A stretch of DNA of 48,840 nucleotides from Bacillus marasmi (GTDB lineage Bacteria; Bacillota; Bacilli; Bacillales; Cytobacillaceae). The DNA lies in the NCBI RefSeq assembly GCF_902168435.1, contig NZ_LR656185.1, forward strand, positions 1 to 48,840, written 5' to 3'. The notes beneath the pieces were generated by a model, which worked only from the letters and a program-made list of their open reading frames with translations, searched no databases and was not told where the DNA came from. Shown here one piece after another: positions 41,782 to 48,078 of the stretch (position 1 is its first letter; the number at the start of each line of letters is the position of its first letter). A program made the position numbers and the translations under genes.

Positions 41782-42225
41782 TTATTTTGGTACCGGTGTT
41801 GGAGTTGGTTCACCGTAATCAGCGTATTTTTCGGTAATGTATTTGTTAATGTCTTTTAATTCTTTTCCATCTTGCTTCATTTCAACCGCCTCACGGGCGA
41901 TTTGTACACAGATGTCTCAAGATACTCCCATTGCATCCCATTCAGTAACATTCATATCTGAGCCAAAACTATCAACAAAGCAATCTAGATTACTTACGTG
42001 ACCATCTTCTGCATAGCAACCACAATAGCACGGTACAGAAGCCAAAGCTTCAGGGTAGGTTGCAGCCATAATATAGGTTTCTTTTATTTGATCAGAGGAA
42101 CTAACTACAAAATCAGGCAATTCTTTATGTTTAGAGTCTAAAGCTAATTCTTCTTTAGATCCGCACCCTGCTAGAAATACCATGAAAAGTACAACAATTA
42201 GTGCAAATCCTTTGTATTTTCTCAT
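41782..42225 (-). CDS. PCYCGC-motif lipoprotein with in-frame TGA at a cysteine position (candidate selenoprotein)
   Basis: The frame runs 148 codons, with a single internal TGA at codon 103 (41917-41919). It begins with a lipoprotein signal (VVLFMVFLAGCGSKEE), then has VPCYCGCYAEDGHVSN, the family's name motif. The TGA stands in WDAMGVS-TGA-DICVQIARE, where related proteins, as I recall them, have MSCDIC. Forty-four intact sense codons follow, ending TPTPVPK, a normal family C-terminus. Stopping at the TGA gives a 102-residue protein lacking the second cysteine motif. A 7-bp hairpin begins 14 nt after the TGA. The start is ATG 42225. Role: metal-binding lipoprotein in a copper/zinc gene cluster. 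Confidence 0.7.
41884..41902 (-). promoter_or_regulatory. SECIS-like hairpin after the TGA of the PCYCGC gene
   Basis: In the mRNA AATCGCC pairs with GGCGGTT (one G-U) around the loop CGTGA. The loop starts 21 nt after the TGA and has G in its second position. As I recall, bacterial SECIS elements have a stem with G in the first two loop positions, 16-37 nt from the UGA. Confidence 0.45.
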
Positions 42226-43980: not shown

Positions 43981-44713
43981 TTAATGACCAAAATGGGAAA
44001 AAATAAAATATATTCTTATAAAAATTAATCCTGATAAAGCGCTCATAATCATCTTGGGTGTTAAGTGATTCTTTAATCCTTTCCACAAAATTTCGTAAAA
44101 AGCAACGTACCCTAGTGACCCTGCTATTCCCATAATAATAGTACGAAGTTTTAAGGAATTGAAATCAACTGCAATTCCCATATAAGTATTTACCCCAACG
44201 GTGAAAGCCAATAAAAAACTTATTAACAGAAATATTTTTAGTTTCATTTTGGAATATATAACGGAAACCATCATAATCATTCCTTCTGGAACATGGTGTA
44301 TCAAAATCGCACTTAATAAAGAAGGATCTTGGAAATGATGATCAGTAAAATTTAAACCTAAAGCTAACCCTACTGGTATACTATGAAAGAATAATGCCAA
44401 GAATAATAAAAAAAGGTTTCAGTATGCACAATTTGAACACTCTTTGTGTTATGTAAAAATTTATCAATTATCAAAACGAAAAATATCCCTAAAGATATCC
44501 CTATGAAAATCCCAATTGGCTGATAACTATTAATAACATCAGGAATCAGCTCGAAACCTAATAAGCCAGCTAAAACTCCTCCACAAAATACGATTAAAAA
44601 GAAATGGTTTTGATTAATTACTTTAGTAATTAATACTGCAACCCCCCACCAAAAGCTGTTCCTATAAAAATATATACACATATTAAAATACTTATTTCGA
44701 TTGCTTCAATCAT
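43981..44713 (-). pseudogene. ZIP-family metal transporter gene with two homopolymer frameshifts
   Basis: From ATG 44713 the frame reads MIEAIEISILICVYIFIGTA and shifts at a run of six G near 44641-44646. It continues as VAVLITKVINQNHFFLIVFC...FELIPDV, then shifts again at a run of seven T near 44410-44416. It ends with LALFFHSIPVGLALGLNF and SAILIHHVPEGMIMMV, the ZIP metal-path motifs of helices 4 and 5. Rejoined it gives a normal-length zinc permease of about 243 residues. Both breaks are in homopolymers, so sequencing error is a real alternative to true inactivation. Confidence 0.75.
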
Positions 44714-45568: not shown

Positions 45569-47698
45569 TTATTCCTTCACTCGCAAAAGTCGCAAGCTGT
45601 TTAATGTTACGATTAGAGTAGCACCCATATCAGCAAAGATTGCTATCCACAATGTTAACCAACCTGGTACTACTAAAAGTAAGGCAATTGCTTTAATTGC
45701 TAATGAGAAGGTTATATTTTGTTTAATAATCGCTAATGCCCTACGGCTTAATTTAATCGTGTAAGGCAACTTGCTTAAATCATCGGACATTAAGGCAATA
45801 TCAGCCGTTTCTAATGCCGTATCAGTTCCAGCACCACCCATTGCTACACCAACAGTTGAAGCTGCTAAAGCTGGTGCATCGTTCACACCATCCCCTACCA
45901 TAGCCACACTGTGATGTTTTGCGCGGAGTTCTTTGATGAAGTTTAGTTTATCTTCTGGAAGTAAATCTGCTTTAATATCTGAAACTCCGACTTCATTTCC
46001 AATTGCTTCAGCGGTTCGCTTATTATCTCCAGTAAGCATCACTGTTTTTTCAATTCCAACTTGGTGAAGTTTACGGATAACTTCTTTTGAAGTTTCTCTC
46101 ATTTCGTCAGCTACCGCAATTAATGAAAGGATTTCTTTTTCCGTTCCTAAAACCATAACGGTTTTCCCTTGTGTTTGAAGAGTTGCAATTTGTTCTTTCT
46201 TATCTTCTTGAATATTATTCGGAAGTATTTCCTCAAAAAGATTTGGACTACCGACATAATAGAATTCATTATTTACTCTTGCTTTTACACCTTTACCGGT
46301 GATGGATTGGAAATCTTCCACCAATACATCCTTAATATTTAGACCATTTTCCTCTGCCTTTCGCATAATGGCTGAAGCAAGTGGATGCTGTGATCCATTT
46401 TCAATGGCGGCTGTGATCGTCATTAATTCTTTTTCATTTCCACCATACATTATGATGTCAGTAACAGCAGGTACCCCTTTTGTTAATGTACCTGTTTTAT
46501 CAAAAGCAATGACTTTTAATGCTCCTGCCTCTTCTAAATGAATACCACCTTTAATTAATACCCCATTTCTTGCTGCGTCCCCAACCGCATTAACAACCGC
46601 CACTGGTGTCGAAACAACAAGGGCGCAAGGACAACCGACAACTAATACGGCTAATCCTTGATAAATCCATTCGCTCCAATCGCCTCCAAATAATAGAGGT
46701 GGGATTATTGCGATAAAAAACGCTAAAACAATGATTGCAGGAGTATAGTATTTCGCAAATTTATCGACAAACGCCTGTGAAGGTGCACGCTCAGCTTGTG
46801 CCTCTTCAACAAGATGAATGATTTTTGCTATTGTGGTATCTTCTGCCAGTTTTGTTACTTTTACTTCAAGTAATCCTTCTTCATTCAACGTTCCTGCAAA
46901 TACTTCATCATAAATCGTTTTTGCTACAGGCACACTTTCCCCTGTAATGGCAGCCTGATTTATCGTAGATGTGCCCTTAACTACAATTCCATCCATAGCT
47001 AATTTTTGTCCAGGCTTCACAATCATAATATCGCCAATTTGAATATCTTCAACTGGAATCATCATTTCTTGTTTTCCACGTCGAATTAAGGCATCTTTCG
47101 GAGCAATATCCATTAATGATTGAATCGATTTACGTGCTTTATCCATTGAGTAAGATTCCAGAGCTTCACTTATTGCAAACAAAATAACAACAGTGGCTCC
47201 TTCACCCCATTCCCCAATAAATGCTGCACCAATAACCGCAATGGTCATTAAGGTTTTCATATCGAATTGGAAACGGACTAAATTCATTAATCCTGCACTA
47301 AAAAGCCTATATCCACCAATTAGAATAGACATTCCATAAGCTAATATAGAAGAAATACTTTCTTCACCATTCAATTGTCCAGATAACCATCCCATTAGTA
47401 GAAAGACGAACGAGACGATCACAGTTGCATGTTTCTTCAAAAACGGTTCTTTTGTTTCTTCAAATCGTTGTTTTTCAGGAATCACTTTTAAATTTTCAAA
47501 TGCCCCTGCTTTTTCAAGTTCTTCTATTGTTGTTTCCCCATAAACAGTAAGTTTCGACGCACCAAAATTAACACTTGCATTAGAAACACCATCCAGGTGT
47601 TTTACGTTCGTTTCGAACTTTTTTGCACAGCTCGCTCAAGAAAAGCCTTGAACACGGTAAACATTTTTATTCATTGATTGCTCTAGAACGTCACTCAT
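45569..47698 (-). CDS. cadA: Cadmium/zinc P-type ATPase CadA with TGA in the HMA metal-binding motif (candidate selenoprotein)
   Basis: From ATG 47698 the frame runs 710 codons with one TGA at codon 21. The N-terminus reads [20 protein letters not shown], which is the HMA domain of CadA (GFTCxxC) with the first cysteine codon replaced. The HMA sequence continues intact ([20 protein letters not shown]). P-type ATPase motifs follow: TGES in [15 protein letters not shown] in [29 protein letters not shown], and [11 protein letters not shown]. It exports Cd, Zn or Pb. The longest TGA-free frame starts at GTG 47485, which has no ribosome binding site. ATG 47698 overlaps the cadC stop by 8 nt, the normal cadCA junction. 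Confidence 0.85.
47606..47618 (-). promoter_or_regulatory. Small hairpin after the cadA TGA (SECIS-like candidate)
   Basis: GTTCG and CGAAC pair around AAA, or GTTC/GAAC around GAAAC. The loop starts 21-22 nt after the TGA, as in the PCYCGC gene. The stem is short, so this is weak on its own. Confidence 0.3.
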
Positions 47699-48059
47699 GA
47701 ACTTTCACCTCCATTTGATGTGTAAAGGCAATCTGAATTAACTGTCTTACGTGATCATCATCTAAAGAATAATAAACTAATTTGCCTTCTTTACGATATT
47801 TCGCTAATCCAAGGTTGCGTAATAGTCTTAAATGATGGGAAGCAGTTGCCGTAGTGGCTCCAACAATATTAGCTACATCACATACACATAATTCATCTTC
47901 TTCACTTAATGCTAAGGCAATTTTTATTCTTGTGTCATCGGATAACACCTTAAATATTTGAGAAACAGCCAAAGTATTTTTTGAGTTAATTACTTCCTTT
48001 ACCCGTTTAACTTTTATGTCATCGACACAGGTTATTTCACACACATCATCATGCTTCAA
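47691..48059 (-). CDS. cadC: CadC, ArsR-family cadmium/lead/zinc-responsive repressor
   Basis: A 122-residue repressor from TTG 48059 (AAGGAG about 11 nt upstream), the same length as staphylococcal CadC; the frame is open to GTG 48071, which overlaps the AAGGAG. It has all four cysteine ligands of the CadC site: CEITC near residues 7 and 11, and ELCVCD in the alpha-3 helix. The winged helix contains TTATASHHLRLLRNLGLAKY and YRKEGKLVYYSLDDDHV. Binding of Cd, Pb or Zn releases it from the operators upstream. Its stop overlaps the cadA start. Confidence 0.92.
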   Translation of the reverse strand: MKHDDVCEITCVDDIKVKRVKEVINSKNTLAVSQIFKVLSDDTRIKIALALSEEDELCVCDVANIVGATTATASHHLRLLRNLGLAKYRKEGKLVYYSLDDDHVRQLIQIAFTHQMEVKVHE

Positions 48060-48078
48060 CTGGTAACCCACTCCTTAT

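Follow-up and report, generated by a model that had tools for sequence, protein, structure and literature searches.

The cadA gene of Bacillus marasmi very probably encodes a genuine selenoprotein, in which the UGA at codon 21, under the direction of a conserved two-hairpin RNA, would specify selenocysteine (Sec) in place of the first ligand cysteine of the HMA domain. The gene lies in a stretch of 48,840 nucleotides (henceforth the window) from a genome of 4.64 Mb in 46 contigs. Our reading draws on the Sec machinery of this genome, on a UGA and an RNA structure that are both conserved, and on an association of the UGA with the machinery, all seen at the level of sequence.

The cadA frame and the metal site of its HMA domain

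On the minus strand, the frame that opens with ATG 47698 contains a single TGA, at 47636-47638, and stops at 45569 (cadA, 45569..47698). Translated with TGA as U, it yields a protein of 709 residues comprising an HMA domain and a P1B-type ATPase, with U21 inside GFSUASC. Profile searches with this product gave 614.5 bits for TIGR01525 (cut-off 346.25) and 536.1 bits for TIGR01512 (cut-off 313.5). Immediately upstream on the same strand lies cadC (47691..48071), an ArsR/SmtB-type metalloregulator gene (NF033788, 95.4 bits, cut-off 55), whose stop ends at 47691 and is overlapped by the cadA ATG. With TIGR01512 above its cut-off and an ArsR-type gene directly in front, the cadA product is a predicted P1B ATPase of the Cd/Zn/Pb type, CadA, carrying an HMA domain and encoded behind a CadC regulator. 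Elsewhere in the window (43981-44681, minus strand), the coding sequence of a membrane protein that resembles ZIP transporters on visual inspection is divided between two overlapping frames close to a T run, through a frameshift, a programmed slip or an assembly error.

The best solved match to cadA is structure 2aj0 (4.2e-23), a CadA HMA whose entry is named probable cadmium-transporting ATPase and which we take to come from Listeria. It aligned to cadA residues 10-73 with the first cysteine of its CxxC motif on U21; where the presumed Listeria domain has Cys, window cadA would have Sec, within U21-A-S-C24. The UGA codon (47636..47638, minus strand) thus takes the place of the first metal ligand in the CxxC motif of the HMA domain, and it aligns with Cys in homologues as well. 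A TIGR01525 score above cut-off and the U21-A-S-C24 motif together place the product among predicted UxxC selenoproteins. The first-pass annotation of this DNA had proposed that, from ATG 47698, the HMA domain is intact except for GFS-TGA-ASC, and both the translated frame and the structural alignment bear this out.

The choice of ATG 47698 as the start also held up: it overlaps cadC and is directly preceded by GGAGGTG, and no ribosome-binding motif was seen in front of GTG 47485, the frame start after the HMA domain (both judged by eye). This bears on the idea that the UGA is an ordinary nonsense mutation and that a shorter, HMA-less pump is made from a downstream start. A frame of 638 residues does begin at GTG 47485, and such a product could still function, since pumps of this type can often do without an HMA domain. 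However, GTG 47485 lacks a visible ribosome-binding motif, and the HMA protein sequence is conserved on both sides of the UGA. Decoding of the UGA as tryptophan or some other amino acid, whether through an altered genetic code or a suppressor, would equally account for a cadA frame that is open when UGA is sense. Here, the upstream cadC gene itself ends at TGA, the UGA is aligned with a ligand Cys and not with Trp, and the genome encodes the full Sec machinery (see below), which leaves this reading exceedingly improbable.

Sec machinery, distribution of the UGA and exchange with cysteine

The first-pass annotation had called for a check of the Sec machinery, and this turned out to be complete: the genome has a tRNA-Sec of 62.2 bits (above the Rfam gathering score) as well as SelA (562.3 bits), SelB (361.5 bits) and SelD (392.5 bits), each above its curated cut-off. 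The selD gene is about 0.6 kb from selA and contains one TGA, for which a regular expression located no UGA site. The genome also holds a second CadA match with one TGA (G000:C21) and two formate-dehydrogenase-type matches with one TGA each, one of them above the model cut-off; the RNA following the UGA of the latter pair has GGUCU at +19 to +23 (by eye). Three further matches with one TGA each resemble the CYCXC family, and one of them lies in the window, outside the cadA operon. This gene (41782..42225, minus strand) has one in-frame UGA at 41917-41919, followed by one hairpin whose loop spans +22 to +26; its closest model is NF041379 (CYCXC family (seleno)protein), which it matches at 73.7 bits, below the cut-off of 90. 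Its UGA is present in most of the relatives listed, and the RNA consensus, read in 15 of 30 loci, is a single hairpin, which the single-sequence fold forms incompletely at some of the loci read (e.g. L299, L302). In four other genomes (G001, G002, G024 and G026), a UGA-containing CYCXC match and a UGA-containing cadA match are no more than about 1 kb apart, a proximity hinting at a functional link between the two predicted selenoproteins. As both UGA genes of the window resemble predicted selenoprotein families, their co-occurrence reflects a genome that contains a number of genes of this sort.

We surveyed 193 genomes of the same family, 183 of which have a cadA match. At least 154 of these 183 have a TGA inside the matched stretch, in at least 21 of 25 genera (one of them solely via the odd genome G171, below); the exact place of the UGA codon was read in 91 rows, the other genomes being represented by a stop count only. 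The first-pass annotation had judged TGA in both genes unlikely to come from random nonsense mutation; for cadA, conservation across same-family genomes and genera excludes chance. It also weighs directly against a nonsense mutation in cadA. The same UGA in independent genomes, named RefSeq records included, makes a sequencing or assembly error a negligible explanation, the least probable of those considered. We rejected all three of these readings of the UGA: a nonsense mutation, a changed code and a sequencing error.

The presence of TGA follows that of the machinery. SelA occurs in 172 of the 193 same-family genomes, and SelB scores above its cut-off in 170. Among the matches listed, 154 genomes have a TGA-bearing cadA match and 152 of these have SelA; of the 29 genomes with a match and no TGA row among the matches listed, 15 have SelA and 14 have none (Fisher 2.4e-11, genomes being counted as independent regardless of relatedness). 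Without five genomes that have only a weak match (26-31% identity), the latter group comprises 13 genomes with SelA and 11 without, and the Fisher value is 1.6e-9. Since 13-15 SelA-positive genomes have a match and no TGA row among the matches listed, Sec is not required for the pump. The two exceptions on the other side differ. G179 lacks SelA in an assembly that is 81% complete, yet a tRNA-Sec scores above cut-off there and SelB is strongly matched (2.3e-92). The real exception is G171, with a UGA-CadA, no SelA, and no SelB or tRNA-Sec above cut-off; its UGA copy (L089, G171:C28) has an altered hairpin II loop. G171 also has UGA-free CadA copies, one of them about 6 kb from L089 on that contig. 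The UGA copy may have been acquired recently, be decaying or stem from contamination.

In a wider sample of the phylum, 50 of 398 genomes have a cadA match, 14 of them with TGA, and 11 of these 14 are outside the family of the window. We also scanned a public collection with a hairpin pattern built from the UGA alignment, keeping its matches out of the pair counts given below. The scan returned at least 118 matches; among the matches listed, 116 have TGA at the right place and two have TGT, and they include Mesobacillus, Neobacillus, Cytobacillus, Halalkalibacter, Aquibacillus, Virgibacillus and others. Cytobacillus plasmids carry close cadA copies, two of which share one protein accession, the UGA being read in one. 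Predicted Sec-CadA is a frequent feature of Bacillus relatives. Three Desulfoscipio MAGs and Sporotomaculum (L180, L218, L228 and L252) also have the Bacillaceae-type element together with TGA, which suggests horizontal transfer. Records titled Chryseobacterium sp. ISL-80 and Paenibacillus sp. BSR1-1 contain a Bacillaceae-type UGA-CadA (L167 and L192) and are probably misnamed or contaminated. One UGA-CadA (L053, G124:C1) has an additional TGA directly upstream of the HMA domain.

Exchange of UGA and Cys codons among CadA homologues had likewise been put forward for checking, and both forms are indeed present, in 91 UGA rows and 30 Cys rows. On a tree of 120 rows, with the U/C residue masked, a plain count gives five changes of the Sec/Cys label. 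One genome, G108, has TGC at the site and a broken hairpin I pair. SelA is missing from it, and neither SelB nor tRNA-Sec scores above cut-off, in a genus in which at least 58 of 61 genomes have TGA. Two others, G124 and G190, have retained the machinery and have in addition Cys copies with remnant hairpins. Cys-coding CadA with UGA-type hairpin sequence was observed at L143 (G108), L021 (G124), L112 (G190) and L215, as if Sec had recently changed to Cys at these loci. Three other Cys-CadA loci (L123, L124 and L125), in three genomes of two genera, have an identical N-terminal protein stretch, as if they had recently been mobile.

These exchanges also bear on the purpose of the UGA. If Sec is real, the UGA might be kept mainly as a selenium switch, so that scarce selenium stops translation at codon 20 and leaves less pump or an HMA-less one. 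The available text of PMC4513850 describes a Sec-UGA as competing with termination, with recoding of 30-40% and a need for selenium, and the genome keeps two UGA CadA copies; both speak for a switch. On the other hand, no good internal start was seen, and five label changes over 120 rows indicate that Cys can serve. These observations fit a switch and a ligand role alike, and we consider a switch as the main reason for the UGA rather unlikely.

A conserved two-hairpin RNA downstream of the UGA

The first-pass annotation had placed a hairpin 21-22 nt after the cadA UGA. There is indeed a hairpin there, the loop of which covers +22 to +26, and behind it comes a second that is better conserved. 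Hairpin I (47606..47618, minus strand) spans +18 to +30 after the UGA and reads GUUC-GAAAC-GAAC; hairpin II (47585..47601, minus strand) spans +35 to +51 and reads AACACC-UGGAU-GGUGUU, with its loop at +41 to +45. Seven of 128 loci (L049, L050, L126, L130, L137, L140 and L141), all TGA-free rows from SelA-positive genomes, lay outside the motif expressions that served to read the HMA, and one further row was dropped for its short flank. The set used comprised 91 UGA rows (90 distinct) and 30 Cys rows (25 distinct).

All nine core pairs of the two hairpins (core II, +36 to +50) are kept in all 90 distinct UGA rows. Hairpin I contributes four pairs, two of which show changes on both sides, and hairpin II its inner five, its outermost pair being present in 51 of 57 non-redundant rows; CUGGA in the hairpin II loop is near-invariant among UGA rows. 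Across the 90 rows, both-side changes convert C-G to U-A in three, G-C to A-U in two, A-U to G-C in six and A-U to U-A in one. For the statistics we used 57 of the 90 rows, one per distinct +16 to +54 stretch, and one extra outer pair. Here 98.9% of cells are paired and 10 are double-change cells. None of 500 shuffles matched either the paired fraction or the double-change cells, and 6 of 500 did so for the counts of pairs with double changes and of pair types, while slides that keep relatedness gave 36-57% paired and at most five double-change cells. Among Cys homologues, by contrast, the hairpins are largely broken: pairing equals that of shuffles in the 21 of 24 Cys rows tested, with the remnant-bearing L021, L112 and L143 left out, the core pairs being counted in all 25.

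Codon usage points the same way. At codons -8 to -1 of the UGA rows the amino acid is kept at 0.86 and the top synonym at only 0.50, a constraint on the protein rather than on the codon. Inside the hairpins (codons +6 to +10 and +13 to +17), UGA rows use the favoured synonym at 0.96-0.97, as opposed to 0.73 and 0.63 in Cys rows. Codons elsewhere in UGA rows have a top synonym of 0.50-0.72, and the freezing of the hairpin codons gives a Mann-Whitney value of 3.2e-6 (0.66 in Cys rows). At the protein level, Sec pumps mostly read HLDG at a place where Cys pumps mostly read xLPG. Ten distant UGA-ATPases from the phylum sample again have a hairpin loop at +22 to +26, on a longer stem, and a second hairpin at +43 to +57, in a different register; one of them (L330) fits less well.

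The two-hairpin reading comes from the alignment, not from a single-sequence fold. In the window's own sequence a fifth hairpin I pair is possible, reducing the loop to AAA, and in the minimum-energy fold of that sequence alone (75 nt) the hairpin I stretch has other pairing partners and hairpin II sits inside a longer stem. Hairpins specific to UGA rows, together with the machinery, the family-wide TGA and the association with SelA, make a nonsense mutation very unlikely.

Proposed mechanism and relation to known systems

In the pathway that we propose, metal would cause CadC to release the operon, and ribosomes would decode UGA-21 as Sec by means of SelB and Sec-tRNA, the two-hairpin RNA downstream in the HMA coding sequence directing the insertion. 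The resulting selenolate-thiolate UxxC site would bind a soft metal and tune the ATPase. We infer Sec insertion itself, the hairpins as the target of SelB and a selenolate that, by binding soft metal, loads the pump or regulates it; the altered soft-metal affinity through Sec that the first-pass annotation suggested is putative and chemically reasonable. Many known selenoproteins are redox enzymes. Here Sec would instead stand where a metal pump binds its metal, and in Bacillus relatives that can be cultured, which would make the benefit of selenium to a metal-binding domain directly testable. The metal-pump gene would then depend on selenium supply, and annotation that halts at the UGA would strip such pumps of their HMA domain.

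The Sec-containing cation-transporting ATPase family was reportedly first described in 2007. A cation-transporting ATPase E1-E2 (TIGR01525/COG2217; e.g. ABB15669.1) is listed as a predicted selenoprotein in the portions available of PMC13188914, PMC9312934 and PMC2398784, and the available text of a 2016 survey counts 32 Sec heavy-metal ATPases in 25 organisms (PMC5029168). These proteins have the Sec of a UxxC motif in a heavy-metal P-type ATPase, as window cadA would. The available portions of the published accounts of E1-E2 ATPase selenoproteins leave Bacillaceae members and a two-hairpin RNA undiscussed, and searches of the open-licence PMC literature showed neither a description of Sec-CadA from Bacillaceae nor one of a bacterial SECIS with two hairpins. 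A close named record, WP_082919471.1 from plasmid pBO1 of Cytobacillus oceanisediminis 2691, has U21 in the same motif and an ATG that overlaps an ArsR-type gene, and its CDS in the public gene table, displayed without a transl_except note, runs across the UGA, as we propose for cadA; it is a plasmid copy, 71.4% identical to the cadA product over 133 residues. Sec-CadA is thus already known at the family level as a kind of predicted selenoprotein, and what is apparently new here is how frequent it is in this family, how it goes with the machinery, and the tandem hairpin.

The CYCXC family (OS_HP4), listed among selenoprotein families in the accessible part of PMC13188914, is nearest to the window's other UGA gene, and there too UGA and hairpin recur in relatives. 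Its protein is unrelated to CadA, and it has one hairpin where cadA has two.

The bSECIS model, as given in the available part of PMC13188914, assumes one hairpin, with a loop 16-37 nt from the UGA and a G in the first two loop places, most elements having G followed by G or U. Taken as the four-pair consensus, hairpin I (loop GAANN, spacing 21 nt) fits both the G rule and the spacing, whereas with the pair added in the window's own minimum-energy fold its loop is AAA, without a G. The combination of G followed by G or U within 16-37 nt is absent, since the hairpin I loop begins with GA and hairpin II is 40 nt away; the UGGAU loop of hairpin II matches the pattern, at a spacing beyond the modelled range. 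Folding of hairpin I would take up 13 nt and shorten the path to hairpin II to about 27 nt. We tentatively suggest that the tandem hairpin of Sec-CadA might be a distinct class of bacterial SECIS, in which hairpin I folds the spacer and brings the GG-loop hairpin II within reach of SelB, and in which the RNA also dictates protein sequence.
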